Positions 18,498 through 51,864 of a stretch of 64,000 nt of DNA are shown one piece after another. A program made the translations under genes and the position numbers. The DNA is from an uncultured Aquimarina sp. (GTDB lineage: Bacteria > Bacteroidota > Bacteroidia > Flavobacteriales > Flavobacteriaceae), in contig CANMMM010000009.1 in NCBI GenBank assembly GCA_947498935.1, positions 62,001-126,000 of the forward strand, read 5' to 3'. Under the pieces are notes generated by a model. It was not told the DNA's origin. It worked only from the letters and a program-made list of their open reading frames with translations, and made no database searches. The number at the start of each line of letters is the position of its first letter. Position 1 is the stretch's first letter.

Positions 18498-18584
18498 GCG
18501 TTAGGGATAGGAGCGGCATCCTTTTGGTAGCACCTTAGTGCTGCCAAAAGATATAGCGGATAGCCCGACCCTTGGGGAACGCCC
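18498..18584 (+). repeat. Intergenic repeat copy A, subfamily 1
   Basis: Begins GCGTTAGGGATAGGAGCGGC and ends CGGATAGCCCGACCC-TTG-GGGAACGCCC. The core is a strong hairpin CTTTTGGTAGCAC / GTGCTGCCAAAAG. The same ends occur in five other places in the window (19806, 31137, 34204, 41984, 51774). It sits between the convergent hydrolase operon and lacI 2. Confidence 0.9.
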
Positions 18585-18633
18585 ATCTAATACATCATCA
18601 CAACTACGTTTTAGAAATACTTCGTTTTATGGA

Positions 18634-19668
18634 TTAATAAGTGATTTTTTTGGTAGTAGCACGTTCTATAATACTAGTTTTAATCACTTTGGTAGTATAT
18701 TCTGTTTCTTCGCTAGGGTTGTCCTGTTCTAGTTTTTCGATGAGAATACGAGCAGCCGTTTCTCCTAGATAGATTCCATGCTGGCTTACAGTAGTGATCG
18801 CAGGAGTGACGTGTCTAGGTAACTTTCCATTGGTAAATCCTATGATAGAAATATCCTCAGGTACTTTGTGTCCCTTAGACTGAATCAGTTTTAGCGAGTC
18901 TACGGCAGAGTCTTCCTCTAGGCAAAGTAGCGCGTCGATATTACGCGATCCAAGTAGGTTTTTAAGGAGTGTCTCAATATCATTAAATTCATCAATCCGT
19001 AGGATCAAAGCATCATCAATCGGTATGTTATAATCCCGAAGCGCATCCTTGTAGCCTTCGATACGTAGCTTCCCTACGCTCAGATTATCGATATTAGAAA
19101 CCAGTGCGATATTGGTACATCCTGTTTCTATAAAGTGTTTAGTGGCGTTATAGGCCCCTTCTTGGTCATTTACAATTACCTTATCGCAGTGAATCTCGTC
19201 AGAAACCCTGTCGAACATCACGATAGGAATCCCTTCATTGATCGTATTCTTAAAATGAGAAAAGTTTTCTTTAATCTGCGTCTCCTCTGCAATAGAGATG
19301 ATAAAGCCGTCAAGCGCTCCGTTTTTGATCAATTCCATGGCATTGACCTCTTTTTCATAAGACTCATTAGAGATGCAGGTAATAATGTTATAGCCTTTTT
19401 CAGTAGCTACTTTTTCGATACCCACAAATACCTTGGTAAAAAAGTGATTCAAAATATTGGGAATAATAATCCCGATCGTTTTGGTCTTTCTGTTCTGTAG
19501 ATTAAGGGCGATGCTATTGGGTTTATAATGATGCTCTTTAGCATATTCCTGTATTTTGGCTTTGGTTTTGGTGCTAATTTCATAGCTGTCATTCAGAGCC
19601 TTAGATACAGTAGCAATAGAAACATTAAATTCATTAGCAATATGTTTTAATGTTATTCTTTTCTTCAT
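18634..19668 (-). CDS. LacI-family transcriptional regulator 2
   Basis: 344-aa paralogue of the regulator at 2917-3930. N-terminal LacI helix-turn-helix (ITLKHIANEFNVSIATVSKAL, residues about 5-25) and a PBP-like ligand domain starting at TIGIIIPNILNHFF. It is convergent with the hydrolase operon and encoded alone. The gene is bracketed by oppositely oriented copies of the intergenic repeat (A on its 3' side, B on its 5' side). Together with regulator 1 it probably controls the two transcripts of the locus through AAACGTT-type sites. Whether the two answer to different ligands cannot be seen. Confidence 0.88.
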   Translation of the reverse strand: MKKRITLKHIANEFNVSIATVSKALNDSYEISTKTKAKIQEYAKEHHYKPNSIALNLQNRKTKTIGIIIPNILNHFFTKVFVGIEKVATEKGYNIITCISNESYEKEVNAMELIKNGALDGFIISIAEETQIKENFSHFKNTINEGIPIVMFDRVSDEIHCDKVIVNDQEGAYNATKHFIETGCTNIALVSNIDNLSVGKLRIEGYKDALRDYNIPIDDALILRIDEFNDIETLLKNLLGSRNIDALLCLEEDSAVDSLKLIQSKGHKVPEDISIIGFTNGKLPRHVTPAITTVSQHGIYLGETAARILIEKLEQDNPSEETEYTTKVIKTSIIERATTKKITY

Positions 19669-19805
19669 TGGAGCGGTACTTAGGGTTTATGATTGCTAAT
19701 TTAATAATATCTTAATTTAACATTTAGGGACTTTAAGAATAAATTATTAAAATTCTGTAAAATGATGTGTAATACGTGTCATATTGTTGCTGATTTTTGT
19801 TTTTT
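19669..19805 (-). promoter_or_regulatory. Upstream region of lacI 2
   Basis: AT-rich 137 bp holding whatever promoter drives lacI 2 on the minus strand. No good TTG-N20-TAnnTTTG match and no AAACGTTT operator seen. Confidence 0.3.
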
Positions 19806-19892
19806 GGGCGTTCCCCAAGGGTCGGGCTATCCGTTTCAATTCCTCGCACTCCTAAGGTCGTGCTGTGGGATTTCCACTGCTATCCCTAACGC
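19806..19892 (-). repeat. Intergenic repeat copy B, subfamily 2
   Basis: Read on the minus strand it begins GCGTTAGGGATAGCAG and ends CGGATAGCCCGACCC-TTG-GGGAACGCCC. The core differs from subfamily 1: GTGG-AAAT-CCCAC hairpin, then CAGCACGACCTTAGGAGTGC and GAGGAATTG. It lies between the lacI 2 promoter region and the 3' end of the haem-motif gene. Confidence 0.9.
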
Positions 19893-19970
19893 AAAAGAAT
19901 ACTTGTGTAAAGAGTAAGAAGAGATAGAATAAACCAGAATAGTGTAGTTAGTTGAAGTCTAGGTGTGTGG

Positions 19971-21416
19971 TCAGTTCTTTAGTAGCCCATCCTGTTGCCA
20001 TTTCGTGAGTATACTGCGATCTTTTGCAGAAAGGGGTTCTTTAGGAGGCATAGGATCGTTGGTGCTATGGATTCGCTGGATCAATTTTTTATGTCGTATC
20101 GCATGTACTAATTCCTTAAAATCAGTAAGGTCTAGCATGGCGCTAGGACTAGGGTGACTGTGGCAAATCACACAGTTATTCTCGATAATACTTTTTACAT
20201 CTCGATCATAGCTTACTGTCCAGTCTATAATTGTGGGAATATCCGAAAGCGTATCTTTTTTGGGAGCTACGTAAAAATCATCGCCTTGGCTTTGGTTGAT
20301 AAACATAGCACTTCGGTGAGTAATAGGGGCTATTGTAGCCGAGGTGTTGCTTTGGGGTGCTATGGTAATGGCAGTGCTCCTGCTTGCAAAATCCCCCTTA
20401 GAAATCGCATAATCCTGATCTAGATCAGCAATGGCAGTCATAAAATAATCTCCAGGGTGTAGGTAGGTATATGTAAAATCAGTTTCGCTATTCGTTAAAA
20501 AAGATTGTAAAACCGTACTGTTATAGCGAGAAAGTTCTTTAGAAAGTAGTCCGTCTTCGTCGGTTAGTGGTTGGGTAGAAAGATAGAGAAGTATGGGCGT
20601 GTTTTTGATTTTTTGGTGGCGCTGTAGCTGAATGTTTAGTGTAGCAATATGAGGGTAGTCACTGATCGTAATGGGGTCTAGTGAAGAGGTAGCCATTGCT
20701 TCAATAGCATCATTAGTAGCAGACTGCCATAAAAAAGAGGCAGAGTTTTTTATATACAAATACGCATTATCGAATCCGCTAGGAAAATGATAAGTAGGAT
20801 GTTTTTTCGGAAAATCAAATCGATCAGCAGCCCTCTGTGCGAGTGTAGTGGTATGTTTTTTTCCTTTGTAAGTCATATGTCTAGAGGGTGTGGGCTTGCT
20901 GCCGAGTTGACTGGTATAGGAGTTCCAATACAGACTGTCTTTGGTAAAACGCAGTTCCATATACATGGTTTTTTTGCCACCTACCGCGTCTACCAATCGA
21001 TAGTACCGCTGTAGTGTATCTTCTTGGATAGAATCTAGTACAAAATAGCTACTTCGGTAGATGCCATTTAATACACCACCATTTCTAGCCATAATGGTTT
21101 TAGTACCTTTAAAATTGGCAACAAAAAAGGAAGTCAATAAATTACCCATGGATCCGCCTTCATAAATTCCGTGAACATGTGAAGGCCCAATCGCCCTATA
21201 ATCCCAAGTAAACCAATTGAACTTCATACCTGCTACAGTATTGATACCGATCCATTGCCCTTGTATGTTGTTTAATAGTTCGATGCCCTTTTTTTCAATA
21301 TCCACCACGTTTAGTACTGGGACAGCACGGTAGGTGCCTTGGTCTGCATGTGTATAAAAGCTTAAAAACCCAATGATGATACAGAGTATGCTAACTGTTT
21401 TGACGATACATTTCAT
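19971..21416 (-). CDS. Uncharacterised secreted protein with C-terminal CxxCH haem-binding domain
   Basis: 481 aa with an N-terminal signal/anchor (about 1-24). I do not recognise the N-terminal part (about 45-200, IQGQWIGINTVAGMKFNWFTWDY), which repeats aromatic beta-type segments like a lipocalin or DUF domain. The last 70 residues look like a small mono-haem cytochrome c: CVICH at 415-419 attaches haem, and M456 in DPMPPKEPLS could be the axial ligand, as in planctomycete-type cytochrome domains. That would place it in the periplasm. No redox partner gene is adjacent. It is monocistronic on the minus strand. Confidence 0.65.
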   Translation of the reverse strand: MKCIVKTVSILCIIIGFLSFYTHADQGTYRAVPVLNVVDIEKKGIELLNNIQGQWIGINTVAGMKFNWFTWDYRAIGPSHVHGIYEGGSMGNLLTSFFVANFKGTKTIMARNGGVLNGIYRSSYFVLDSIQEDTLQRYYRLVDAVGGKKTMYMELRFTKDSLYWNSYTSQLGSKPTPSRHMTYKGKKHTTTLAQRAADRFDFPKKHPTYHFPSGFDNAYLYIKNSASFLWQSATNDAIEAMATSSLDPITISDYPHIATLNIQLQRHQKIKNTPILLYLSTQPLTDEDGLLSKELSRYNSTVLQSFLTNSETDFTYTYLHPGDYFMTAIADLDQDYAISKGDFASRSTAITIAPQSNTSATIAPITHRSAMFINQSQGDDFYVAPKKDTLSDIPTIIDWTVSYDRDVKSIIENNCVICHSHPSPSAMLDLTDFKELVHAIRHKKLIQRIHSTNDPMPPKEPLSAKDRSILTKWQQDGLLKN

Positions 21417-21642
21417 TCGTATAGATTCTAGGGAGTGTAGTCTATTGGAATATAGTGAATTATTATGGTGGAGGCAATAGAGATTGCAGAATGAGGGTCT
21501 CTATATATGGTAATTGGTCTTGATCCTATATATACTTAGTGATCATAATCCCACAAGTTTTCGGGTTGACCCCATAATTGGTCTTGACCCCTTGATCCAT
21601 TTGTTTTAGTAAAAAAATAAAATCACAAAAACATATAAAAAT
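21417..21642 (-). other. Non-coding region upstream of the haem-motif gene, with a 16-bp direct repeat
   Basis: Two copies of TAATTGGTCTTGA(T/C)CC lie at 21511-21526 and 21575-21590, 64 bp apart, with one difference. A related GGGTTGACCCC lies between them (21563-21573). No gene or promoter match is evident. The repeats could be binding sites for a regulator of the minus-strand gene or a decayed element. Confidence 0.4.
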
Positions 21643-21670
21643 AAAAAAGCCCTGCAAATGCAGGGCTTTT
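21643..21670 (-). terminator. Terminator after tRNA-Phe
   Basis: GCCCTGCA-AA-TGCAGGGC stem flanked by A and T runs; on the minus strand it is followed by a T run 9 nt after the tRNA 3' end. Confidence 0.85.
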
Positions 21671-21678
21671 CGTTAAGG

Positions 21679-21751
21679 TGGTGCCTCCAGGAATCGAACC
21701 AGGGACACAAGGATTTTCAGTCCTTTGCTCTACCAACTGAGCTAAGGCACC
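21679..21751 (-). tRNA. tRNA-Phe (GAA)
   Basis: Full cloverleaf on the minus strand, 73 nt. Acceptor GGTGCCT pairs with AGGCACC and discriminator A. D arm GCTC-AGTTGGTAGA-GAGC-like, anticodon loop CTGAAAA with anticodon GAA, T arm with GGTTCGATTCC. The 3' CCA is not encoded. Confidence 0.97.
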
Positions 21752-21823
21752 TTGTTGTAAGCGGTTGCAAATATAAGACAGTTTTTCAGTTGTGCAAAGA
21801 AAAAAAGTAAAAAAATCGTTTTG

Positions 21824-21831
21824 TAGCTTTG
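21824..21831 (+). promoter_or_regulatory. -7 element for coaX
   Basis: TAGCTTTG matches the Bacteroidota TAnnTTTG -7 motif and ends 18 bp before the coaX ATG. No TTG at the usual distance, so only the -7 box is called. Confidence 0.45.
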
Positions 21832-21849
21832 CAGCTATAGAAAATAGAT

Positions 21850-22581
21850 ATGAATATAGTAATTGATGCAGGTAATACTGCCATAAAGATAGGGGTCTTT
21901 AAGGGGGTTGAGTTGGTGTATAAAAAGGCGTTGGATAATAGTGTGTTAGCTTCGGAAATTGAAACGATTTTAAGGCAGTTTCCAGAGGTGAAACAAGGAA
22001 TTTTGTCGTCTGTTTCTAGCTTGAAATCTGAAAATGTTAAAGTTTTGCAAAAGAAAATAAATCTCATGATTCTCGATGCAAATACCGCAATGCCGTTCTC
22101 TAATTTATACAAAACCCCTACCACATTAGGAGTCGATCGTTTGGCATTAATTGCAGCAGCAGTGGGGCAGTATCCAAGACAGCATGTGCTAGTCATAGAT
22201 GCAGGAACTTGTATTACCTATGATTTTAAAGATGCCAATGAATGTTATTATGGCGGAGGGATTGCTCCGGGGCTACAACTGCGGTATAAAAGTTTACACG
22301 CACACACTGCCAAACTTCCTTTACTTGATGTAACTCCACCAACACACTTTATTGGTGACAGTACAGAACAAGCCATTCATGCAGGAGTTGTACTAGGAGT
22401 AATCTATGAAATAGAAGGAGTTATTGAGCAATATTGCAACACTTACGGTGATTTAACAGTTATTTTAACCGGTGGAGATGCACATTTTTTGTCTAAAAGA
22501 TTAAAAAATAGCATATTTGCCACCTCTAATTTTTTATTAGAGGGTCTAAATTACATTTTAGCATTTAATAACGATCAATGA
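21850..22581 (+). CDS. coaX: Type III pantothenate kinase
   Basis: 243-aa cytoplasmic enzyme phosphorylating pantothenate, the first step of coenzyme A synthesis. ASKHA-fold motifs are present: MNIVIDAGNTAIKIGVF (phosphate 1, Asp6), TLGVDRLALIAAA (pantothenate-site Asp), VIDAGTCITYDF (phosphate 2) and ILTGGDA near the C terminus. Length is typical. Its last four bases overlap the next ATG (ATGA), so it is cotranslated with the outer-membrane protein gene, a common flavobacterial order. Confidence 0.95.
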   Translation: MNIVIDAGNTAIKIGVFKGVELVYKKALDNSVLASEIETILRQFPEVKQGILSSVSSLKSENVKVLQKKINLMILDANTAMPFSNLYKTPTTLGVDRLALIAAAVGQYPRQHVLVIDAGTCITYDFKDANECYYGGGIAPGLQLRYKSLHAHTAKLPLLDVTPPTHFIGDSTEQAIHAGVVLGVIYEIEGVIEQYCNTYGDLTVILTGGDAHFLSKRLKNSIFATSNFLLEGLNYILAFNNDQ

Positions 22582-23825
22582 TAAAGAAGATTTTAGTAGT
22601 TGTTTTGGTAATAAGTACCAGTATATCTTATGCTCAGGAAGGAACTTCTTCGCCATATTCATTTTATGGAGTAGGGATACAGAAGTTCAAAGGGACGGTA
22701 GAAAATAGAACAATGGGGGGGCTAAGTATACTAACGGATAGTATTCACCTTAACCTGCAAAATCCGGCCGCATACGGAGCCCTAAAATTAACCACCTATG
22801 CGTTGGGGGCTAGTTATACAGGATTGAACTTAGATAATGCCGCAGGAGGAGATTCTTATAAAGATAATGCCTCGTTGAATTATTTAGCAATAGGAATTCC
22901 TGCTAAAATTTTTGGTTTTGGTTTTGGAGTTGTACCTCTTAATTCTGTGGGGTATAGAACAATTAGTATTGCTCAAGACGGATCGCAATCACAGTTTTCT
23001 GGTAATGGAGGGCTTAATAAAGTGTACTTAGCAGCAGGAATCGAGGTAACCAAAAACCTAAGCTTAGGGATTGATTTCAATTATAATTTCGGTAACATAG
23101 AAAACAAAGCAATTCTTAGAAAACCAAATGTACAATTTGATACCAGAGAGCTTAGAAATTCTGATCTATCTGGGATTAGTTTTACTTTTGGAGCAACTTA
23201 TAAAAAGATGCTTACCGATAAGCTACAATTGACAGCTACGGCTGTTTCTACACCGTCTTTTTCGCTTAAATCAGAAAACAATTTACAATTAGCCACAGTG
23301 ATTTTACAGGCCAATGGTAGGGAGATCGTTGTAGAGTCTCAGGATGTAGCGGTGGAAGATAGAGATTTAGATTTGCCATCAGAATTTAAATTTGGATTAG
23401 GAATAGGAGCTACTAGAAAATGGTTTGTAGGTACAGAGTTTGGTTATGTAGATACGCAAGTATTTGAAAATAGATTTGCTACTGTAGATGATGTAAAGTA
23501 CGAACCAGCTTCTCAATACAGATTAGGAGGATATTACATACCTAATTATAACTCACTTACCAGTTACCTGAGTAGGATTGTATACCGAGGGGGAATCCGC
23601 TATGAAGAAACAGGATTGAACATCAATGGACAATCGATAAATGAGTTTGGCATATCTTTTGGAGTAGGGTTACCAGTCGGGAATTTGTTCTCTAATGCAA
23701 ACTTAGGGTTTGAATTTGGTACCAGAGGGACAACCGATGCAGGCCTTGTCAAAGAAGAGTTTTTCAACATCTCACTAGGACTATCACTTAATGATAAATG
23801 GTTTAGACAAATAAAATTTAATTAA
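22578..23825 (+). CDS. Putative outer-membrane beta-barrel protein
   Basis: 415 aa, signal peptide about 1-19 (IKKILVVVLVISTSISYAQ). It then shows alternating amphipathic strands rich in Gly and aromatic residues (TSSPYSFYGVGIQKF, NLQNPAAYGAL, GIRYEETGLNINGQ, FNISLGLSLNDKWFRQIKFN) with an aromatic C-terminal residue region. The NPA motif near the start resembles long-chain fatty-acid-transporter-like (FadL/PorV-like) barrels. The transported molecule is unknown. It lies in a cluster with envelope genes (lptC, PpiD-like), consistent with an outer-membrane role. Confidence 0.7.
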   Translation: MIKKILVVVLVISTSISYAQEGTSSPYSFYGVGIQKFKGTVENRTMGGLSILTDSIHLNLQNPAAYGALKLTTYALGASYTGLNLDNAAGGDSYKDNASLNYLAIGIPAKIFGFGFGVVPLNSVGYRTISIAQDGSQSQFSGNGGLNKVYLAAGIEVTKNLSLGIDFNYNFGNIENKAILRKPNVQFDTRELRNSDLSGISFTFGATYKKMLTDKLQLTATAVSTPSFSLKSENNLQLATVILQANGREIVVESQDVAVEDRDLDLPSEFKFGLGIGATRKWFVGTEFGYVDTQVFENRFATVDDVKYEPASQYRLGGYYIPNYNSLTSYLSRIVYRGGIRYEETGLNINGQSINEFGISFGVGLPVGNLFSNANLGFEFGTRGTTDAGLVKEEFFNISLGLSLNDKWFRQIKFN

Positions 23826-23844
23826 CTACACAATTTATACAGCT

Positions 23845-25931: not shown

Positions 25932-25948
25932 GACTAACCGAACAATAG

Positions 25949-31136: not shown

Positions 31137-31224
31137 GCGTTAGGGATAGCAGAGGAAATCCCACAGCCCGACCTTAGGAGGTGCGAGGAATTGGAACGGA
31201 TAGCCCGACCCTTGGGGAACGCCC
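31137..31224 (+). repeat. Intergenic repeat copy C, subfamily 2
   Basis: GCGTTAGGGATAGCAG at the left, CAGCCCGACCTTAGGAG then GCGAGGAATTGGAACGGATAGCCCGACCC-TTG-GGGAACGCCC at the right. Oriented opposite to copy D at 34204. The pair brackets glpD and its GntR regulator. It ends 21 bp from the glpD stop codon. Confidence 0.9.
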
Positions 31225-31245
31225 TAAGAATAAGCGAATATACAA

Positions 31246-32937
31246 TTACAGTATCTCATTGTCATAAAACGTACGTGCATCTTCTAGTAATAGTGCTAGG
31301 GCTTGCTGCTCTTGTTGTATGCGATCAGTATTCCAATCGAGATAGATGCTTAGATCTTTAGTAACTAAGTTTAGGTAGTGAGATACACTATGAATGTCAA
31401 AGTACAATCGTCCAGTCCTGCGTACAAAAAAATCGGCAAGTCCATTGGCCATTTCATAGTGTACGCTGTACCATACCTCTGCACGGATCAGGCGTTCTTC
31501 GATGGTTTCATTGGTAAAATGGCTAGCTTGTTCGATGATTTTGTCCGTTTGTTGTCCATAAGTGCTTACCAAATAGCTACCGTAGTAATCCGTAAGCATT
31601 CCGTTTTGTTTTAGACGCTGATTTACTGCTTCTAGATATGTTGTTACATCCTCAGAGTTAGCCAAAGGAGTATCGGTAAGCGGAATGGTATGGGTGTGTG
31701 AAGTTGCAAATTGATTTTCAGAGAGCGTAGATACGGTTTTTAGTACCGTATCGATCACCCGTTGTGCCATTTTGCGATAGCCAGTTAATTTTCCGCCTGC
31801 GATCGAAATCAAGCCCGTGTCTGAGACGAAGATTTCGTCTTTTCGGGATAGCTCAGAAGGATCTTTGCCGTCTTCATGAATCAGGGGTCTCAGTCCTGCC
31901 CAGTTAGAGTCTATATCTGCTAGCGTTAGTGCTAGAGAAGGAAACATATTATTCACCGCATCGAGTAGGTAGCTGGCATCAGCTTTGGTTGCTACCACGC
32001 GGTTTAGATTGGCATTATAGTTCGTATCTGTAGTGCCTACATAAGTCGTATTACCTCGCGGAATGGCAAAAATCATACGCCCGTCTGGTACATCAAAATA
32101 CACCGCTTGAGAAAGTGGGAATTTAGAACGTGGAAATACAATATGTACTCCTTTGGTTAGGTGCAATCGCTTGCTATTCATAGAATCATCCTTAGCACGT
32201 AATAGGTCTACCCAAGGCCCTGTAGCAGAGACATAACTTTTGGCACTTAGTTGAAAGGCCTGCCCTGTATTATGATCTAGACAAGCTAGATGTTGTATAC
32301 AACCTTCTGTATCATATACAAAGGAGGTCATTTCGCAGTAATTAATGCTACAAGCACCATAGGAAGCTGCTTTTTTGAGCAGTTCGATGGTCAATCGAGC
32401 ATCATCCGTGCGGTATTCGGCATAATAGCCACCACCAGTAATCAGGGTGGGATCGAGTAGAGGTTCTTTGGCTAATGTTTCTTGTACACTGAGCATTTTT
32501 CGCTTATCATCTCCCCCTACATTGGCCAGAAAATCATATACCATCAGTCCAATAGCCGTCATCATTTTTCCGTAGGTGCCTCCTTCTATGAGTGGCAATA
32601 ACATTTTCTCGGGTACCACTAAGTGTGGTGCTAATTGATGTACGATGGCACGTTCGCTACCAGATTCTTTGACCAGTCCGATTTCGAATTGTTTGAGGTA
32701 CCGCAAGCCACCATGAATCAGTTTGGTCGATTTATTGCTAGTACCCGAAGCAAAATCATTTTTCTCTATCAGGCATACGTGTAGCCCTCTGGAAGCAGCG
32801 TCTAATGCGATACCAGCTCCTGTGACACCGCCTCCGATAATGATCATATCATATACGGTGTTTTGTGCGGTAGCAAGTTGTTGTGCGCGATCTATGATCG
32901 AAAAACGAGGAGTTTTCATGGCTTCTTCGGGGTGCAT
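31246..32937 (-). CDS. glpD: Aerobic glycerol-3-phosphate dehydrogenase
   Basis: 563-aa FAD enzyme oxidising sn-glycerol-3-phosphate to dihydroxyacetone phosphate and passing electrons to quinone at the inner membrane. N-terminal dinucleotide-binding motif MIIIGGGVTGAGIALDAASRG (about 25-44), FAD motif TKLIHGGLRYL, and ISIAGGKLTGYRKMA near the end of the DAO domain. A C-terminal helical GlpD domain follows (about 400-563). It lies 171 bp after the GntR gene on the same strand, which suggests local control. No glpK or glpF is visible in the window. The first ATG was chosen; a second at residue 7 is also possible. Confidence 0.93.
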   Translation of the reverse strand: MHPEEAMKTPRFSIIDRAQQLATAQNTVYDMIIIGGGVTGAGIALDAASRGLHVCLIEKNDFASGTSNKSTKLIHGGLRYLKQFEIGLVKESGSERAIVHQLAPHLVVPEKMLLPLIEGGTYGKMMTAIGLMVYDFLANVGGDDKRKMLSVQETLAKEPLLDPTLITGGGYYAEYRTDDARLTIELLKKAASYGACSINYCEMTSFVYDTEGCIQHLACLDHNTGQAFQLSAKSYVSATGPWVDLLRAKDDSMNSKRLHLTKGVHIVFPRSKFPLSQAVYFDVPDGRMIFAIPRGNTTYVGTTDTNYNANLNRVVATKADASYLLDAVNNMFPSLALTLADIDSNWAGLRPLIHEDGKDPSELSRKDEIFVSDTGLISIAGGKLTGYRKMAQRVIDTVLKTVSTLSENQFATSHTHTIPLTDTPLANSEDVTTYLEAVNQRLKQNGMLTDYYGSYLVSTYGQQTDKIIEQASHFTNETIEERLIRAEVWYSVHYEMANGLADFFVRRTGRLYFDIHSVSHYLNLVTKDLSIYLDWNTDRIQQEQQALALLLEDARTFYDNEIL

Positions 32938-33108
32938 ACAGTGTCTTTTTTTTATGGGTATACGGATAGTGTGCTATTGTACACCTGTCGTATGTTATAA
33001 ATATCTGAATTATAGTAGAAAAACCAAGGGTAAGATACGTTAAAAACGAATAAAGAGTCGTTATACAACACTTTTTATAGCCAATTGAAAAAAAATTGAA
33101 AACTTCTA

Positions 33109-34128
33109 TCACAGAGAACCTCGTTCTCGCAAACGTACAGGAATATACACCGTAGCAGCAACCTTGTCTTTAATGAATCGAGCAATCTTTTGCACCATTG
33201 CTTCGTAATGAGGAGCAATAGTGGTAATTCCATCGCCTATGAGTGCTTTGGGAGGACTGTCGCCATAGCTTAGTATACCAATATCTTTGCCCATACGGAA
33301 TTCGTTTTTCTGTGCCTGTTTTACTAACTTCCATAGCAGGGCATCGTCCATACAGAAGTAGGCAGTGTTTTTTTGCAGCGTATCAAGCGTGCTATTTTTT
33401 ACCACCTGTCCGCTGAGATCGTATTCTTTTAGGTATCTTCTAAAAGCAGTAGTTACGGGAGCTGCTATTGCGATACGATTAGGGCAAAGCAATACAATGT
33501 TTTGATACTGTAGCAATCGGTGAGTAAGCTCCACAAGTTTTTGGTAGATAGCAATTTCTATTTGCACAGTCATCGTAGTGTATGTTTTAGGCAGCTCGAT
33601 AAGGTGTTGGATCACTACGAGTTTGGTAGGCGGAATGGATTGTAAAAGTTCAGAAGCTATATGAGTATCTATTATGGGGGATACGATAAGCAGCCCATAG
33701 CCAGCACGATGTGTTTCGATCAGCGTGCGTAATGTAGCAGCATCATGATGATGAAAAAACACATCGATATGATACCGTATGCCTAATGACTGTTTTAGGG
33801 AGGTATAGATGATCCCTGTAGCATCGTTAAAAGAGGACACTACTAATGCAATACGTAGTACGCGATGCGTATGGGTACTAGCTATAAAATATCCTTTCTG
33901 ACTTTTAGAAATCACCAACCCACGATCTTTTAACTCCGTATACGCTTTTACAAAAGTCTTGCGCGCATACCCAATTTCTGTAGCCATGGTATTGATAGAA
34001 GGTAGCTGATCCCCAACAGCTAAGATGCCTGCGTCGATGGCGTCAATGATGCCCAAAACGATGTGTTCGTGTTTAGACAAGGCATTGATACTACGGTGTG
34101 TATTAATACTTTCGAATATAGTAGCCAT
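33109..34128 (-). CDS. GntR-family regulator with LacI-like ligand domain
   Basis: 339 aa. The N-terminal winged helix of the GntR type is about 17-80: AGDQLPSINTMATEIGYARKTFVKAYTEL, DRGLVISKSQKGYF. From about 90 a periplasmic-binding-protein-like domain (LRIALVVSSFNDATGIIYTSLKQSL) replaces the aminotransferase or FadR domains of other GntR proteins. It is a likely repressor or activator of glpD just downstream. A 6-bp inverted repeat TTAGCA / TGCTAA (34132-34155) directly before its start is a candidate autoregulatory site. Confidence 0.85.
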   Translation of the reverse strand: MATIFESINTHRSINALSKHEHIVLGIIDAIDAGILAVGDQLPSINTMATEIGYARKTFVKAYTELKDRGLVISKSQKGYFIASTHTHRVLRIALVVSSFNDATGIIYTSLKQSLGIRYHIDVFFHHHDAATLRTLIETHRAGYGLLIVSPIIDTHIASELLQSIPPTKLVVIQHLIELPKTYTTMTVQIEIAIYQKLVELTHRLLQYQNIVLLCPNRIAIAAPVTTAFRRYLKEYDLSGQVVKNSTLDTLQKNTAYFCMDDALLWKLVKQAQKNEFRMGKDIGILSYGDSPPKALIGDGITTIAPHYEAMVQKIARFIKDKVAATVYIPVRLRERGSL

Positions 34129-34131
34129 CTG

Positions 34132-34155
34132 TTAGCAAGTTGTTAGTCATGCTAA
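34132..34155. promoter_or_regulatory. Candidate operator of the GntR regulator
   Basis: TTAGCA and TGCTAA separated by 12 bp, 4 bp before the start codon. Short, so weak evidence. Confidence 0.3.
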
Positions 34156-34203
34156 AGGTACGTTTTGTCACGTAAAATAAAAAAGAGATCGTGTTGAATA
34201 GTA

Positions 34204-34291
34204 GGGCGTTACCACAGGGGTCGGGCTATCCGCTGTATCTTTTTTGTTTTGTAAGGAAAACAAAAAAGGATGCCGCTCCTATCCCTAACGC
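34204..34291 (-). repeat. Intergenic repeat copy D, subfamily 1
   Basis: On the minus strand GCGTTAGGGATAGGAGCGGC, hairpin CTTTTTTGTTTT / AAAACAAAAAAG, then CAGCGGATAGCCCGACCCC-TGT-GGTAACGCCC. The hairpin arms differ completely from those of copy A although pairing is kept. Confidence 0.9.
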
Positions 34292-34488: not shown

Positions 34489-34944
34489 TTATAAGATACG
34501 AGCGACTTCTTGGTTTACAAACTCTAAGAAGCGTTCATCATCTTCGCTAAAAGGGTCAGGCGTATTCGAATCAATATCGATCTGACCAATATTTTCGCCA
34601 TCTTTAAACAGAGGGATTACAATCTCTGATTTTACATTAATGCTGCATGAGATATAATTGTCTTGTGCCTGTACATCAGGAACTACAAAATTTTCATTAC
34701 TCAGTGCCACCTGACCACAAATTCCCTTCCCAAAAGGAATAACCGTATGATCCGTAGTGTCACCTGCATAGGTTTTTAAAATTAGTTCTTTTTTATCTCC
34801 ATTTTTAAAATAAAATCCCACCCAATCATAATATGCGATACGCTCTTTGAGCAAATCACAAACCTGTTGTAATCGATCAGTTACAGATGTTTGAGAATCA
34901 CTTAGTAAGTTAATAACTAGGGGTTTTAAGGTTTCGAATAACAT
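34489..34944 (-). CDS. GAF-domain protein, free-methionine-(R)-sulfoxide reductase type
   Basis: 151 aa from the ATG at 34944; the longer start at 34986 overlaps the -7 box at 34965 and lacks conservation. The whole protein is one GAF domain of the fRMsr (MsrC) type: DWVGFYFKNGDKKELILKTYAG, GKGICGQVALS, SEIVIPLFKDGENIGQIDIDS. Cys76 and Cys100 are 24 residues apart, exactly as C94 and C118 in E. coli MsrC. The third Cys (E. coli C84) is replaced by a His-region residue. It probably reduces free methionine-R-sulfoxide with thioredoxin. Confidence 0.82.
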   Translation of the reverse strand: MLFETLKPLVINLLSDSQTSVTDRLQQVCDLLKERIAYYDWVGFYFKNGDKKELILKTYAGDTTDHTVIPFGKGICGQVALSNENFVVPDVQAQDNYISCSINVKSEIVIPLFKDGENIGQIDIDSNTPDPFSEDDERFLEFVNQEVARIL

Positions 34945-41983: not shown

Positions 41984-42085
41984 GGGCGTTTCCCCCGATT
42001 CAGATCGGGGGTCGGGCTATCCGCTATATCTTTTTTGTTTTTTTAAAAGGAAAACAAAAAAGGATGCCGCTGCTATCCCTAACGC
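41984..42085 (-). repeat. Intergenic repeat copy E, subfamily 1, inside the efflux operon
   Basis: 102 bp. On the minus strand GCGTTAGGGATAGCAGCGGC, hairpin CTTTTTTGTTTT...AAAACAAAAAAG, CGGATAGCCCGAC then the strong hairpin CCCCCGAT-CTGA-ATCGGGGG and AAACGCCC. The second stem is longest in this copy. It separates the HMA-MauE gene from the adaptor gene and could act as a processing or attenuation site. Confidence 0.9.
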
Positions 42086-44880: not shown

Positions 44881-44905
44881 GTAACAGGCATCAGTCTTAA
44901 AAAAA

Positions 44906-44938
44906 CAAATCCCGTTTCTAATATAGAAACGGGATTTG
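44906..44938 (-). terminator. Terminator of groESL
   Basis: CAAATCCCGTTTC and GAAACGGGATTTG with a 7-nt loop; T7 follows on the minus strand, 25 bp after the groL stop codon. It also faces the VanX-like gene but has no T run that way. Confidence 0.88.
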
Positions 44939-44962
44939 AGTAGTATTGTTAGGTGTATGAGA

Positions 44963-46615
<1,653 letters not shown>

Positions 46616-46677
46616 TTAAAATGATTCTGGAGTAGTATACCAGAATAGTTGATTTGTGATTGCTTATTGATTCAGCC

Positions 46678-46953
46678 TTATACAATCGCTAGGATATCCT
46701 CCTCGCGCATGATTAAATAATCTTTCCCTTCTAATTTTAGTTCAGTACCAGAATATTTTCCGTAAAGCACGGTGTCACCAACTTTAACGGTCATCTCATA
46801 ATCCTTTTTGCCATTACCTACAGCGGCAACTTTCCCTTTTTGTTGTTTTTCTTGAGCCGAGTCAGGAATGAAAAGTCCTGATGCTGTTTGTGTTTCCGCA
46901 GGAAGTGGCTCTACAACTACGCGATCTGAAAGAGGTTTAATATTTACTCCCAT
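46678..46953 (-). CDS. groS: 10-kDa co-chaperonin GroES
   Basis: 91 aa, the lid of the GroEL chamber. [20 protein letters not shown] opens the chaperonin-10 fold; the mobile loop is in [19 protein letters not shown], and [15 protein letters not shown] is typical. It is the first gene of the groESL pair. A promoter with a 20-bp spacer is proposed at 47011-47041. No CIRCE inverted repeat was seen before it. Confidence 0.98.
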
Positions 46954-47010
46954 TATGATTAGTTTTTATGAATTTTTAAAAATTTACTTTTTCGATACAG
47001 CACATATTTC

Positions 47011-47041
47011 AGAAATTATGCCAGCACTGTAATACTGACAA
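47011..47041 (-). promoter_or_regulatory. Candidate promoter of groESL
   Basis: On the minus strand TTG (47041-47039), 20-bp spacer, TAATTTCT (47018-47011). Spacing is exact but the -7 box has two mismatches to TAnnTTTG. It overlaps the region between secG terminator and groES. Confidence 0.35.
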
Positions 47042-47048
47042 ATTGAAA

Positions 47049-47081
47049 CAAAAAATGCCGACTGTATGACAAGTCGGCATT
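47049..47081 (-). terminator. Terminator of the miaB-secG operon
   Basis: ATGCCGACT and AGTCGGCAT with an 8-nt loop, T run on the minus strand, 25 bp after the secG stop codon. Confidence 0.85.
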
Positions 47082-47105
47082 GTATGCTGTATTTTTAGAA
47101 ATGAC

Positions 47106-47450
47106 TTACTCAGCAGGTGCTGCAGCTTTGTCATCGGTAGTAGTAGGAATGGCAGCAGGAGTATCAATAGCCTCTGTGTCATTGGTATCTACTGTAGTGT
47201 CTTCGCTACCAGTACCATTCATTAAATCGATATTCGATACTAAGATAAGTACTAATAAAAGTGTGGCCAGTGCCCATGTACTTTTATCAAGAAAGTCAGT
47301 TGTTTTCTTTACACCGCCTAATTGCTGCGTACCTCCGCCACCAAAAGAAGAAGATAATCCACCACCTTTTGGATTCTGAACCATGATTACTACGATGAGT
47401 AGAAAGGCTACGATGACGATCAGTACTAAAAAAATTGTAAATGTTGTCAT
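47106..47450 (-). CDS. secG: Preprotein translocase subunit SecG
   Basis: 114 aa. Two membrane helices (about 3-22 and 53-70) flank the conserved cytoplasmic loop MVQNPKGGGLSSSFGGG and LGGVKKTTDFLDKSTW. A tail rich in Asp, Thr and Ala (about 78-114) is common in Bacteroidota. It assists SecYE-mediated export. Last gene of the minus-strand operon starting at miaB, 9 bp after the preceding gene. Confidence 0.92.
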   Translation of the reverse strand: MTTFTIFLVLIVIVAFLLIVVIMVQNPKGGGLSSSFGGGGTQQLGGVKKTTDFLDKSTWALATLLLVLILVSNIDLMNGTGSEDTTVDTNDTEAIDTPAAIPTTTDDKAAAPAE

Positions 47451-47459
47451 TATAATATT

Positions 47460-48380
47460 TTATTTATTTTCGTGTATTTTCTCTATTGCCCGAATTTGGT
47501 CTGCAAAGAAACCACTTTTTTCGGGATTTTTCAAAATTAATATTTTATATGCCTGAATTGCTTGTTTGTACTTCTTCTGTGCAAGATAGACTCTAGCTAA
47601 GGTTTCGGTCATCAATTCATCTGGTGTAACGGTATGTTCGTTTGCTAAATTGCGTGAAGGGCTATTTTTATCTGCGGGTTTTATTTTGGGATTATTGGCT
47701 ATAAACTCGTCAATCAGCTCGAACTTCTCTTGCTGAGCAGTAGGGGGTGCTGTTGTTTCTACAGTTTCCTCTATTGCTTCTTCTGTAGCTTCTTCTGTAG
47801 CTTCTTCGGGAGTGGCGTTTGTAGCGTCAATTGGTTGGATTGAGGTGATTTTTAACCATTCGCTAAAAGAGTGCGTTTCTTTTTTGTCAAACTCAAGTGG
47901 CGTATCGATGGCCAACATAGAAGTCGCTTCTTCATGCGTAATAGCTGTCTCATCAACAGCTTTTTCGATGTCTTCTTTAGAAGAAAATAAGGCAGGATTA
48001 AGCACCTTCTCAGCTTCTTGTATGTCCATGTCCACCGCATCATCCATAGCGATTCGAGCTAATGCTTTTACCTCTTCTGGGTCAATCACTCCGATTTGAT
48101 CTGGTGTTTTTGGTGGAGTGCTAGTGGTGGGTGTTGGCTCTTGGAATAGCGGAGAGGTGATATAATCAAACAATACACTGCGGTCTACAGTATAGGCGGC
48201 GGTTGTTTTGAGTTCTTGATTGTATCTAAAACTTCCTTGTTCTTTGAGTCCTTTGAGTAGTATAGGTCTGATCGACTGGAAATACGGAAACTCCTTGCTA
48301 ATCTTGGCCAAGGCATCAGTTTGAGCTTCGCTGATCGAAGCTGGATGTTGTAATAGATGTGCGAGTTCTTTAATGGTCAC
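47460..48380 (-). CDS. TPR-like protein with acidic low-complexity centre
   Basis: 306 aa, no signal peptide. The N-terminal part (about 1-80) is helical (LAHLLQHPASISEAQTDALAKISKEFPYFQSI). The middle has a run of Thr/Glu repeats (EEATEEATEEAIEE, about 188-205). The C terminus (about 258-304) is a TPR-like pair (ETLARVYLAQKKYKQAIQAYKILILKNPEKSGF). Function is unknown. It is conserved in this position between lptE and secG in the order familiar from flavobacteria. 12 bp after lptE. Confidence 0.72.
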   Translation of the reverse strand: MTIKELAHLLQHPASISEAQTDALAKISKEFPYFQSIRPILLKGLKEQGSFRYNQELKTTAAYTVDRSVLFDYITSPLFQEPTPTTSTPPKTPDQIGVIDPEEVKALARIAMDDAVDMDIQEAEKVLNPALFSSKEDIEKAVDETAITHEEATSMLAIDTPLEFDKKETHSFSEWLKITSIQPIDATNATPEEATEEATEEAIEETVETTAPPTAQQEKFELIDEFIANNPKIKPADKNSPSRNLANEHTVTPDELMTETLARVYLAQKKYKQAIQAYKILILKNPEKSGFFADQIRAIEKIHENK

Positions 48381-48392
48381 GATGTTATGGTT

Positions 48393-48893
48393 TTACCACT
48401 TGGCAAGTGTAGCGTTTAGGATGTCTTGTGTGATACGCTCGTAAATAACAGCGATGGCTTGATCTCGAATACTGGTCTCTGGTTGCGAAGCACCAAAGTC
48501 AAAGAAAAAAGAGAACTGTTGTTCCATGTCCTCATCAGGATTTTTGGTGTCATAAAAACGTACATTAATCGCTACCGTTAATCGGTTTTGAGCAGCGGTG
48601 TTTTGTGCGGTCGCATTGGTAGGTGCTACGTAGTATTGTACAATCTCTCCTTCGTAGATGAGGTCTGCATCAGAGGTAACTAAATTCAGATTGGTTTGGT
48701 TTAGAATCAAATCTTGTAACTGATTGGTAAAGGTTTGGTCAATACCAGGGATGATAATAGGTGCTTGATTCTGAAAAAAGTTGACCTGAAAAGAAGTCGC
48801 AGTGGTATTGATACCACTAAAAGAGTATGCACCACAGCCTTGTAGTACTACAATTGCGATCATGCTGATAAGGATGTATGTTACTTTTTTCAT
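48393..48893 (-). CDS. lptE: LPS assembly lipoprotein LptE family
   Basis: 166-aa outer-membrane lipoprotein (VLQGC, Cys20) that plugs the LptD barrel. The mature part starts GAYSFSGINTTATSFQVNFFQNQAPI, the usual Bacteroidota LptE opening, then FTNQLQDLILNQTNLNLV and LIYEGEIVQYYVAP. It completes LPS export with LptC encoded at 25215. It is in operon with the sigma-54 activator, 22 bp after it. Confidence 0.87.
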   Translation of the reverse strand: MKKVTYILISMIAIVVLQGCGAYSFSGINTTATSFQVNFFQNQAPIIIPGIDQTFTNQLQDLILNQTNLNLVTSDADLIYEGEIVQYYVAPTNATAQNTAAQNRLTVAINVRFYDTKNPDEDMEQQFSFFFDFGASQPETSIRDQAIAVIYERITQDILNATLAKW

Positions 48894-48915
48894 ATAATAT
48901 GTATAATATTGTTTT

Positions 48916-50181
48916 TTAAAGATCGTATTGTTTGATTTTTCGATAGAGCGTACGTTCGCTAATTCCTAGTTCTTCGGCAGCCGCTTTGCGCTTTCCTCTA
49001 TGGCGTTCCAGTGATTTTTTGATCAATTCCAGTTCTTTGTCATGGAGGGATAGTGTTTCTTCTTCTTCGATCTCTTCTGCAAAATGATATTTGTCTTCTT
49101 CTTTAGGAATAGAGACACTAGGAGATTCTATTTGTAGTACCTCTGTAGTAGGGGTGCTAACTGTTTCTTCAAAACGAATGGTTTCTTCTTTGTCCTCTCG
49201 ATATATTTTACGGATCAGTCCTTCGTTTTCTTTTTGTACTTCTTGGGAATTACCGCTTTGCATTAATTCCATAGTCAGTTTCTTGAGATCATTCAGGTCA
49301 TTCTTCATATCGAAGAGTACTTTGTATAAAATCTCCCGTTCGTTGCTAAAGTCAGATTCTTTTTTGTCCGATGCCACTACGGCAGGTAGATTACTACCTA
49401 TATTGGGCAGGTATCCTCTGAGTGTAACCGCAGAAATACTTCTGTTTTGTTCAAGGACTGATATTTGCTCGGCGATGTTGCGTAATTGCCTGATATTTCC
49501 ACTCCAATGGTATTTTTCTAATAATACTACGGCATCTTCTTGTAGTCGAATGGTGGGCATCTTGTACTTAGTAGCAAAATCAGCTGCAAATTTTCTAAAT
49601 AAAAGATGGATATCCTCATTGCGATCACGAAGTGGAGGGAGTAAAATTTCTACGGTGCTAAGGCGGTAGTATAAATCCTCTCTAAACTTTTCTTTTTTGA
49701 TAGCCTCAAACATGTTTACGTTTGTGGCTGCTACAATACGAACATCTGTTTTTTGTACTTTAGAAGACCCTACTTTGATAAACTCTCCGTTTTCTAATAC
49801 CCGTAATAAGCGCACTTGTGTAGTAAGGGGTAGTTCACCTACTTCGTCTAAGAAGATGGTACCTCCGTCGGCTACCTCGAAATAGCCACTACGCGCAGCA
49901 GTAGCGCCTGTAAAGGCTCCTTTTTCGTGTCCGAAGAGTTCACTGTCTATGGTTCCTTCGGGGATAGCACCACAGTTTACGGCGATGTATTTTCCGTGTT
50001 TGCGGTGTGATAGCGAGTGAATAATTTTTGGTAAACTTTCTTTTCCAACGCCACTCTCTCCAGTAACCAACACAGAAATATCGGTAGGGGCTACCTGAAT
50101 AGCTTTTTCGATGGCACGATTGAGCTTTGGGTCATTCCCAATAATCCCAAATCGTTGTTTAGTAGCTTGTACTGATTCCAT
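48916..50181 (-). CDS. Sigma-54-dependent transcriptional activator (Fis-type HTH)
   Basis: 421 aa. AAA+ domain about 12-250 with Walker A GESGVGKE (41-48), the sigma-54 contact loop GAFTGA intact at 88-93, Walker B GGTIFLDEVGELP, and R-finger region REDLYYRLSTVEI. A variable linker (about 275-375) follows, then a C-terminal Fis-type helix-turn-helix (GKRKAAAEELGISERTLYRKIKQ). There is no N-terminal receiver or sensor domain, so activity must be set by level or partner. It lies between miaB and lptE in one operon, an arrangement also typical of flavobacteria. Targets are unknown. Confidence 0.92.
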   Translation of the reverse strand: MESVQATKQRFGIIGNDPKLNRAIEKAIQVAPTDISVLVTGESGVGKESLPKIIHSLSHRKHGKYIAVNCGAIPEGTIDSELFGHEKGAFTGATAARSGYFEVADGGTIFLDEVGELPLTTQVRLLRVLENGEFIKVGSSKVQKTDVRIVAATNVNMFEAIKKEKFREDLYYRLSTVEILLPPLRDRNEDIHLLFRKFAADFATKYKMPTIRLQEDAVVLLEKYHWSGNIRQLRNIAEQISVLEQNRSISAVTLRGYLPNIGSNLPAVVASDKKESDFSNEREILYKVLFDMKNDLNDLKKLTMELMQSGNSQEVQKENEGLIRKIYREDKEETIRFEETVSTPTTEVLQIESPSVSIPKEEDKYHFAEEIEEEETLSLHDKELELIKKSLERHRGKRKAAAEELGISERTLYRKIKQYDL

Positions 50182-50210
50182 AGTGTGTGAGCTTCTGGTT
50201 TTGTGTTAGA

Positions 50211-51656
50211 CTAGTTGTTTTTCGAATATCCTACAGCTTCTCCTAATAATGTAGCACTGGTGCATTCATCGATACGTACCATCACAAAATCTCCAATATT
50301 GTAGTTTTCTTTTGGGAATACTGCCACTGTATTTTGGGTAGTTCGTCCGCTCCAATGGGCATCTGATTTTTTGGATGCTTTTTCGATCAGGACTTCTACG
50401 GTTTGCCCTATATAGGCTTGGTGTCGGACGGCACTGTGTTGGCGTTGTAGTTCTATGATCTCGGCCAATCTTCGTTTTTTTGTAGCCTCGGGCACATCGT
50501 CTTCCATCTTTCGTTCTGCAAGTGTGCCAGGTCGCTCGGAATAGGCGAACATGAATCCATAGTCATATTTTACATATTCCATAAGGGAGAGCGTATCTTG
50601 ATGATCTGCTTCGGTTTCGGTAGGGAATCCTGTAATGATATCTTGCGATATGGCACAATCAGGAATCAGTCGTTTGATATTATCGATCAGATCAAAATAT
50701 TCTTGTCGCGTGTGTAATCGATTCATCTCTTTGAGGATGCGATCACTTCCACTTTGTATAGGTAGGTGTATGTATTTGCAAATGTTTGGATGTTTGGCCA
50801 TGACTTCGATCACGTCTAAGGTCATGTCTTGTGGATTAGAAGTGGTGAAGCGCAATCGCGTTTTTGGGTACTTAGTGGCTGCCATGTCTAATAGTTTGGC
50901 AAAGTTGGTAGCGGTTGCTTTTTGGAAATCACTGGCTTTCTCAAAATCTTTTTTGAGGCCTCCACCATACCAGAGATAACTGTCTACGTTTTGCCCTAGA
51001 AGGGTAATTTCTTTAAAATTATTGTTTACTAAGTCATCGATTTCTTCTAAGATGCTCTGAGGGTCACGACTACGCTCTCTACCTCTGGTAAAGGGTACCA
51101 CACAGAAGGTGCACATATTGTCGCATCCTCTGGTAATGGATACAAAAGCAGAGACGCCATTGCTTTGTAGACGTACTGGAGAAATGTCTGCGTAGGTTTC
51201 TTCTTTAGAAAGGATTACATTCACAGCGTTACGTCCTGCATCGACTTCTTCGATCAGATTCGGAAGGTCTTTGTAGGCATCGGGACCTACTACGAGGTCT
51301 ACGATTTTTTCTTCTTCTAAAAATTTATTTTTGAGTCGTTCTGCCATGCACCCGAGTACCCCAACTTTCATTTTAGGGTTATTTCTTTTGACAGCGTTGT
51401 ATTTTTCTAGACGTTTTCTAACGGTTTGCTCTGCTTTTTCTCGGATAGAACAGGTATTGACCAATACGAGATCAGCATCTTCTAGGTTTTGGGTTGTGTT
51501 AAATCCTTCTTTGGCTAGGATGGATGCTACGATTTCACTATCGCTAAAATTCATCTGGCATCCGTAACTTTCTATAAAGAGCTTTCGTGTATTTTCTTTT
51601 TTGCCTTCTAGGGTCAGTGCTTGTCCCTGTATACTTTCGTCAATTGTCTTCTCCAT
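50211..51656 (-). CDS. miaB: tRNA-2-methylthio-N6-dimethylallyladenosine synthase MiaB
   Basis: 481 aa from the ATG at 51656. The upstream ATG at 51689 is only 9 bp from the -7 box, so it is probably not used. N-terminal UPF0004 domain ([35 protein letters not shown]) with three cluster Cys; radical-SAM CxxxCxxC in [18 protein letters not shown]-terminal TRAM domain. It adds the methylthio group to A37 of tRNAs. First gene of the operon reaching secG. Confidence 0.94.
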
Positions 51657-51697
51657 GTTTTTTGTATATCCTTGGTGGATTAAACTCAAATAGTATG

Positions 51698-51728
51698 CAA
51701 AGATACTTTATTCCACTGTTTCTGACAA
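51698..51728 (-). promoter_or_regulatory. Promoter of the miaB operon
   Basis: Minus strand TTG (51728-51726), 20-bp spacer, TATCTTTG (51705-51698): an exact match. It favours the 51656 start of miaB and lies between miaB and repeat copy F. Confidence 0.7.
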
Positions 51729-51773
51729 AGTGGCAGGATGATATTTCTGTAAAACGAGCATGGTGTTGTTAGC

Positions 51774-51864
51774 GCGTTAGGGATTGCAGTGGAAATCCCA
51801 CAGCCCGACCTAAGGAGGAGCGAGGAATTGTAGCGGAAAGCCCGACCCCTTGTGGGTAACGCCC
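51774..51864 (+). repeat. Intergenic repeat copy F, subfamily 2
   Basis: GCGTTAGGGATTGCAG, GTGG-AAAT-CCCAC hairpin, CAGCCCGACCTAAGGAG, GCGAGGAATTGTAGCGGAAAGCCCGACCCC-TTGT-GGGTAACGCCC. It sits in the divergent gap between miaB and topA, upstream of both promoters' starts. The final short stem differs from copies B and C but still pairs. Confidence 0.9.

Follow-up and report, generated by a model that had tools for sequence, protein, structure and literature searches.

A probably mobile, structured repeat that contains the Flavo-1 motif alternates in orientation along the genome of an uncultured Aquimarina

Introduction

A stretch of 64,000 nucleotides from an uncultured Aquimarina species (family Flavobacteriaceae; assembly GCA_947498935.1, contig CANMMM010000009.1), hereafter the window, carries six copies of a short intergenic repeat with hairpins, and the question these raise is what kind of element they are and how their copies come to be placed and oriented along a chromosome. 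The window is C9:62001-126000 of the genome G000, which comprises 4.77 Mb on 286 contigs. A first-pass annotation had read the copies as a non-autonomous, structure-dependent repeat mobilised by a repetitive extragenic palindrome (REP)-associated tyrosine transposase (RAYT), or as a structured RNA or a DNA-binding site. The explanation we prefer overall, and hold tentatively, is a mobile structured element that is not spread by a RAYT and whose copies mark polar borders in the chromosome.

The six repeats and the Flavo-1 family

The six repeats are full-length copies of an element that is held in part by Rfam as the Flavo-1 RNA (RF01705). All were found where the first-pass annotation had placed them, with lengths of 87–102 bp and in the strand order + - + - - +, and all six lie outside genes in our own gene calls, in agreement with its description of them as always intergenic; the copies at 31137 and 41984 are overlapped by two mechanical open reading frames (ORFs) of 84–85 aa. 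That annotation also held that pairing is kept where the stems vary, which stands, but it left two interior types unseparated. Type A, with the Flavo-1 interior and a long CTTTT../..AAAAG hairpin, is found at 18498..18584 (+), 34204..34291 (-) and 41984..42085 (-), the last having a long 3' hairpin (CCCCCGAT/ATCGGGGG). These copies score 59.6, 63.8 and 64.3 bits against RF01705, all above its gathering score of 42 bits, and 99.8, 98.2 and 100.4 bits against R1, a covariance model trained on type A copies, which does not demand both ends. Type B, which has an inner hairpin unlike that of type A, is found at 19806..19892 (-), 31137..31224 (+) and 51774..51864 (+). The RF01705 scores of these three (38.5, 30.2 and 35.8 bits) fall short of the gathering score, as do those of all 15 type B copies in C1:20-160 kb, and their R1 scores are 57.5, 46.1 and 47.1 bits. 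At 51774, CGGAAAGCCC replaces CGGATAGCCC and is offset by GGGATT replacing GGGATA, so that this copy shows the T.A version of a covarying pair.

The nested helices of RF01705, with their covariation, are the same as those of the element. The Rfam model has 76 positions and lacks the outer stem and 3' hairpin of the complete three-way junction, and it is common in the family, with a match in 158 of 249 genomes. Flavo-1 is named in Weinberg et al. 2010 (PMC2864571), so the structured RNA proposed by the first-pass annotation had already been published, and the literature consulted assigns it no function. A part of PMC9029176 mentions Flavo-1 in a section on the most abundant small RNAs.

Conserved secondary structure

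The element folds as a three-way junction made up of an outer stem (GCGTT/AACGC), an arm of the form GGG-AT-X-G...Y-A-G-CCC that leads into a long, imperfect inner hairpin of either type, and a short hairpin on the 3' side. Alignment A1 combined 22 of the 53 distinct type A copies of G000, picked for variety, with eight of the nine full-length copies from G121, a genome of another genus of the family. In this alignment 94.9% of cells are paired and 15 of the 30 pairs change on both sides, with a covariation score of 0.270 compared to 0.079 for shuffled alignments; none of 500 shuffles scored as high, and the compensatory change first noticed in six copies is thus borne out on many. When the partner was shifted by one column, pairing fell to about 53%. 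Because the Rfam model and the same sequences guided the drawing of the structure, the test is biased towards it. The outer stem, missing from the Rfam model, is paired in 100% of A1 cells and changes from C.G to G.C and from G.C to C.G in five and six G121 copies; in 7 of the 10 G121 copies read, it is GGCTT with AAGCC or AAGCT. The 3' hairpin is less well paired (82% of cells). At the X.Y pair of the arm, 135 of the 140 copies sampled from G000 could be parsed, giving 119 A.T, 12 T.A, 3 C.G and one mismatch.

The inner stem of type B also covaries (CAC/GTG, CTC/GAG, CTAC/GTAG, CTGC/GCAG, CCCC/GGGG and CATC/GATG; 82 of 85 copies parsed), its commonest version, CCC with GGTG or GGAG, requires a bulge, and a few versions, such as CAC with GGG, are incompletely paired. 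In alignment A2 (59 of the 81 distinct type B copies), the drawn pair 24-59 is unformed in 59 of 59 sequences, so that this detail of the type B structure is wrong, and another pair fails in 11 of 59. A2 otherwise exceeds its shuffles in most measures, the number of pair types being one that does not (142 of 500 shuffles as high). Folded as single-stranded DNA and compared with shuffles, type A gave z values of -3.45, -5.56 (the copy at 41984) and -2.89, and type B weak values of -0.47, -1.20 and -1.98.

Copy number and sequence divergence

The core GCGGATAGCCCGACCC, allowing at most two mismatches, has 242 + 237 matches genome-wide (reversed control, 0 + 0), so the six window copies are far from alone among about 480 cores. 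Elements were collected with a pattern that demands both ends (at most two and at most one substitutions) and so favours intact copies. The first sample, of 864 kb (C1:1-400000, C2:1-300000, C3:1-80000, C11:11001-31000 and the window), yielded 96 full-length elements. Type A accounts for 34 of them and type B for 62, one of the latter having a third interior. That copy (L084:594-696(+), equivalent to G000:C2:20594-20696) has the usual ends around an interior unrelated to A or B. Both ends are present, and close together, in 95 of the 97 core hits in these 864 kb (of 4.77 Mb), so that no gene lies between them. A later sample, taken to test the alternation described below (C4:1-260000 and C5:1-140000), added 44 elements (23 B, 21 A), and the pooled set is 140 elements in 1.264 Mb, 85 of them type B if the third interior is counted. 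A covariance model had been proposed by the first-pass annotation as a check, and R1, run over C1 and the window, returned 57 matches, of which 47 are the elements found by the pattern and the other 10 are weak echoes of type A copies on the reverse strand. Incomplete type B copies may escape both searches.

Elements are 85–103 bp long, apart from one of 154 bp. Among the 140 copies there are 135 distinct sequences, 135 copies begin exactly with GCGTTAGGGAT and 139 finish with ACGCCC, which indicates that the interiors have diverged and the ends have not decayed. Two copies at G000:C2:52061 and C2:55229 have similar flanks, from a local duplication, and 3' hairpin loops that differ (GATA versus TTGT), which suggests hairpin exchange.

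Evidence for mobility

The exact core CGGANAGCCYGACCC occurs 378 times in G000 but 0–3 times in each of 65 other genomes of the genus, and RF01705 has 0–37 matches in each of 32 congeners, among the candidates scored per genome. The region C1:116-390 kb is largely colinear with C1:3.90-4.28 Mb of a congener, G026, with indels (68 kb of G026 are missing at 160674) and one inverted block. While C1 and the window carry 47 elements in 464 kb, an R1 search of 800 kb of G026 gave no convincing element (a single match, at E 0.5). Copies lying within the shared gene order would thus be insertions, unless G026 lost them all. Taken with the core counts and the compensatory changes, the comparison supports the non-autonomous, structure-dependent repeat of the first-pass annotation, and we regard the element as very probably mobile DNA, mobility and structure being the safe part of our reading.

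Some observations pull the other way. Loss of all the copies in G026 may have occurred, and that genome has three RF01705 matches outside the compared 800 kb. Across the 140 copies there is no excess of target-site duplications of 2–10 bp over shuffles, and no exact empty site was found in G026 at the eight junctions tried, where the intergenic flanks have diverged too far; on both counts, transposition itself is something we infer. All 140 copies are preceded by a pyrimidine, T in 120 and C in 20, and W-A-A is preferred after the element.

The element resembles miniature inverted-repeat transposable elements (MITEs) in being short and non-autonomous, with terminal inverted repeats of 5–6 bp (GCGTT/AACGC, paired in 100% of A1 cells), but differs in having no target-site duplication and in retaining its pairing by compensatory change. 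No related transposon was found in the sequence read. The idea that neighbouring copies bracket mobile gene cassettes arose from galE and its neighbour at 34489, which are adjacent in some congeners, and was rejected, C1:116-390 kb retaining the G026 gene order across elements. Transduction of 5' flanks was also rejected: flanks matching elsewhere number 34 of 140 (5') and 17 of 140 (3'), partly from MITEs and one local duplication.

A second, MITE-like family of about 170 bp occurs at 88 loci in the 1.264 Mb of G000 (e.g., C1:188500-188668 and C1:197573-197751), with TTTAAACTTTTTT near its ends and AACGATCTTTTGCAC and TCCGTAGCGCTGCTATG inside. It is also present in a congener, G009, and G026 has just 22 bp in place of the copy at C1:188500-188668. 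G000 and G026 differ strongly in composition, with 37.3% and 32.2% GC and an orthologue GC content at third codon positions (GC3) of about 0.31–0.33 and 0.22, respectively.

Rfam types RF01705 as 'Gene; sRNA', and an independent small RNA or a cis-regulatory RNA would account for the conserved pairing. Parts of PMC9723704 bear on this in both directions, in that several 5' transcribed regions coincide with Flavo-1 hits, but the hits lie sense or antisense without preference and many fall outside transcribed regions. Our own data are harder to fit with an RNA: the 52 sites between tandem genes divide into 21 on the same strand and 31 on the opposite one, and hundreds of copies in one species are matched by few in its congeners. 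We consider this explanation very unlikely.

The resident RAYT carries a different repeat

Spread by a RAYT, a transposase of the Y1 HUH class, would suit the high copy number, extragenic sites, hairpins and lack of target duplication, features that the element shares with REPs, bacterial interspersed mosaic elements (BIMEs) and REPINs, and the genome does encode a RAYT-like protein. A search with Pfam PF01797 (Y1) recovered one intact and one broken protein, the intact one being RAYT-like (194 aa; 91.9 bits against the NCBIfam REP-associated tyrosine transposase) and encoded on G000:C11 (L061 1225-1809(-)). Its gene is flanked by CTAGT hairpins, GCCACTAGT...ACTAGCGGTAG (GCCACTAGT..ACTAGCGGTAGC), which are common to the RAYT loci of several congeners and probably represent the actual REP of this group of RAYTs; the only typical-looking copies in the first 864 kb are the two that flank the gene. 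No Flavo-1 end or core is present in these flanks.

Y1/RAYT loci were drawn from G000, its congeners and other genomes bearing Flavo-1, and 56 of the 60 fetched were searched (177 kb, with about 1.5 kb per side where the contig allows, and L061 counted for L106). None of the 56 carries the element by R1 (E 0.1), and none of 20 does by Rfam. The proposal of the first-pass annotation that a RAYT moves the element, and that a RAYT gene flanked by the same ends could be found, is therefore not upheld. The GT[AG]G motif that lies at the foot of REP hairpins is seen in one of 140 copies, and close inverted doublets are absent, the smallest distance between neighbours being 588 bp. In G024, a genome 89% complete with 31 cores at no more than one mismatch, the only match to the resident RAYT (E 8e-4) is stop-ridden, although other Y1 genes are present there. 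A portion of Quentin et al. 2018 (PMC6006769), which deals with RAYT subclasses, describes, beside Bacteroidetes genes of subclass 2.6, 'atypical secondary structures' that recur at other places in the genome, and this can be read in favour of RAYT spread. On balance, the element is likely not moved by a RAYT, and a REP/REPIN-like origin has little probability. Two group II intron domain matches lie near a RAYT gene, in two genomes (L106:2390-2505(-) and L119:2519-2637(-)).

Alternating orientation and even spacing

Neighbouring elements lie on opposite strands in 76 of 89 cases on the first contigs, where the pattern was noticed (binomial p 5.4e-12), and in 39 of 42 on the later contigs, which served as a separate test set (p 2.8e-9). 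Pooled with C11, the count is 116 of 133, a value that none of 20,000 label shuffles reached (shuffle maximum, 89). The order, which the first-pass annotation had no means of seeing, extends over several copies, with 75 of 113 on the same strand at lag 4 and 34 of 119 at lag 3. Mean spacing is 8.9 kb. Its coefficient of variation is 0.617, below every one of about 2,000 simulations with randomly chosen intergenic sites (mean 0.893), and 2.9% of simulations gave 50-kb counts as low as those observed. Since neighbours of mixed type (AB/BA) alternate in 47 of 52 cases, types A and B share one lattice. We know of no mobile element in which neighbours kilobases apart are opposite in 87% of cases, and the literature searched (titles and abstract openings) gave no description of such alternation or of a mobile Flavo-1. 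PMC2817692 describes BIMEs as regularly spaced REPs in alternating orientations; there the alternation is inside a cluster, in contrast to about 9 kb here, and the element also lacks the RAYT link and the GT[AG]G foot of this class.

Four simple causes were rejected. A lagging-strand bias is contradicted by near-equal strand counts, the two strands being within one element of each other in each of the 16 bins on the discovery contigs. GC content as the sole cause predicts orientation correctly in 101 of 137 cases and gives alternation in 81 of 130, compared to 52% (sd 5%) at random intergenic sites. Paired insertion of sister copies does not fit '+ -' partners that are no more alike than '- +' neighbours. 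Integron attC sites, compared by their box sequences, differ in that the element's copies are dispersed and its end polarity is opposite.

Parts of the literature on uptake sequences (USS/DUS; PMC1939737) report hundreds of copies on both strands at rather even spacing, the passages disagreeing on evenness. A DNA-uptake-like sequence spread by biased transformation would match the regular spacing and equal strand totals of the pooled set (69 + and 71 -). Uptake sequences are motifs of 9–12 bp, however, while the element is structured, about 90 bp long, polar and intergenic (4 of 138 copies lie inside called ORFs), and neither its alternation nor its polarity would be explained. We regard biased uptake as extremely improbable.

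In G121, where 150 of 2,035 candidates were scored, at least 75 matches reached E 0.001 or better. For the 65 matches listed on contigs with two or more, neighbours are opposite in 19 cases and the same in 30, with a strand bias by contig (p 0.043); that list is incomplete, so any alternation would be diluted in it. A search of the whole of G121 C1:400-800 kb with R1 gave 12 matches at E <=0.0011; three lie on the plus strand and nine on the minus strand, and opposite orientation is found in 5 of the 11 neighbouring pairs. Alternation is thus not a fixed property of the element family. Long versions of 144–182 bp also occur in G121 (L221:19167-19342(-), L224:7344-7525(+) and L220:4060-4203(-)), sharing a GGAGGCRACCTWAGAAGCCCACG-like inner module, and two of the three have GCGAAAGGG ends.

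The alternation could also arise by purging of direct repeats, if copies in the same orientation recombine and lose the genes they enclose, so that mostly inverted neighbours survive. Neighbours in the same orientation are indeed further apart (median gap 12.5 kb versus 7.7 kb, p 0.057), but direct repeats make up most of the second neighbours closer than 9 kb (9 in the same orientation, 3 opposite), inverted neighbours in the compared region show no inversion between them except at one rearranged block (C1:326.5-333 kb), neighbours within 20 kb in the G121 list share their orientation in 13 cases and differ in 6, and polarity would be left unexplained. Purging of direct repeats accordingly seems a highly improbable cause.

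Polarity of the flanking DNA

The two ends of the element face different surroundings. With genes called by a simple longest-ORF script rather than a gene finder, the nearest gene lies at a median distance of 70 bp from the 3' end but 175.5 bp from the 5' end (134 elements, p 1.5e-8), and the GC3 of that gene is 0.355 and 0.310, respectively (134 elements, p 1.8e-9); the later set alone gives p 0.021 and p 0.008. The 3' end tends to face the nearer, longer and GC-richer gene. Segments between facing 3' ends have a GC content of 0.3875, compared to 0.3588 between facing 5' ends (58 each, p 3e-10), along with longer genes and a higher coding density. Loci of the MITE-like family lie within 1 kb on the 5' side in 25 cases and on the 3' side in 8, and for the 32 elements of the compared region an orthologue is found solely on the 3' side in 11 and solely on the 5' side in 2. 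Local features predict orientation in 82% of cases (leave-one-out, 134 elements) and would yield 61% alternation, whereas 88% is observed (127). Neighbours alone fit 90%, and neighbours with local features 98.3% (118/120, derived), both values being in-sample.

That coupling between neighbours exceeds what local features give is one argument for an insertion process in which a copy already in place steers a new one to a nearby site in the antiparallel orientation, with short-range immunity. Even spacing, the coupling between types and the slight excess of like-type neighbours (66% versus 54% of all pairs) also agree with such a process. Against it, within-type neighbours are not closer relatives (identity 0.876 versus 0.871), '+ -' partners resemble each other no more than '- +' neighbours do, G121 is without alternation, and such a process would not produce a constant polarity relative to genes and GC. 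Guided insertion is, in our estimation, distinctly unlikely.

Polar borders as a possible cause

In the explanation based on polar borders, an enzyme other than the resident RAYT would have spread the element in this lineage. Insertions would survive, or be targeted, mostly with the 5' side on tolerant DNA and the 3' side on a gene-dense neighbourhood, and the copies would thereby have come to mark most borders between alternating chromosomal stretches. Cassettes, paired insertion, purging of direct repeats, guided insertion and GC alone each run into a contrary result. What remains is that orientation would follow an underlying polarity of the chromosome that GC, gene size and gene proximity reveal imperfectly, and the element may make the border or simply report it. 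Borders of this kind would produce alternating orientation, even spacing and 5' sides enriched in AT-rich genes and MITEs. Their physical meaning, perhaps a polar barrier to transcription, supercoiling or silencing, is speculative. That polar borders cause the alternation is possible, and we hold it a little less firmly than the explanation as a whole. In a stronger version, the element would have been recruited across the whole genome as polar boundaries that divide the chromosome into alternating stretches of about 8–9 kb, its 3' ends facing gene-dense stretches and its 5' ends those that collect foreign DNA, a bacterial counterpart of oriented insulators; this version is unlikely.

Several results weigh against polar borders. 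In long segments (>=9 kb), the centres of '+ -' and '- +' segments are equal in mean GC (0.370 each; n 21 and 24), so the segments are not homogeneous domains, and the GC difference at their edges is not significant (p 0.09). Polarity is local and gone beyond about 3–5 kb, and when whole segment classes of the colinear region are compared, there is no significant difference in conservation (p 0.26), identity (p 0.33) or GC3 (p 0.09). The polar signs are not independent, since MITEs and accessory genes both lengthen and AT-enrich 5' sides, and the features were picked after inspection of the data. Elements were considered as synteny breakpoints and rejected as such, gene adjacency being conserved in 13 of 28 cases at elements and in 65 of 111 otherwise, which is not significant. 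The family does not alternate in G121, and we know of no protein bound to the element and of no transcript of it.

A conceivable substrate for such borders exists in Escherichia coli, where, according to PMC12460168, active and AT-rich silenced stretches adjoin in chromosomal hairpins (CHINs) and operon-sized chromosomal interaction domains (OPCIDs). These are organised by H-NS and StpA and not by a repeated DNA element, and the likeness is one of description.

Genes between copies and other RNA motifs

Two '+ -' intervals of the window have genes with family matches that are below curated cut-offs. The short interval 18585..19805 has one called gene, for a LacI-family-like regulator (18634-19668), and 31225..34203 holds a glycerol-3-phosphate dehydrogenase-like gene and a GntR-like regulator gene. 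Elsewhere, S-adenosylmethionine (SAM) and SAM-II riboswitch matches lie on opposite strands less than 0.4 kb apart (L068:11498-11606(-) and L068:11989-12074(+)).

Significance

The analysis supplies the full outline of the Flavo-1 element and a second interior type, and its evidence is that what Rfam lists as an 'sRNA' behaves, in this lineage, as a mobile DNA element with a conserved structure. Most surprising is the alternation, given that random insertion would produce about 50%. If its cause is functional, the bounds of bacterial chromosomal domains would become testable by sequence; if it is mechanistic, the alternation would point to a new rule of insertion.

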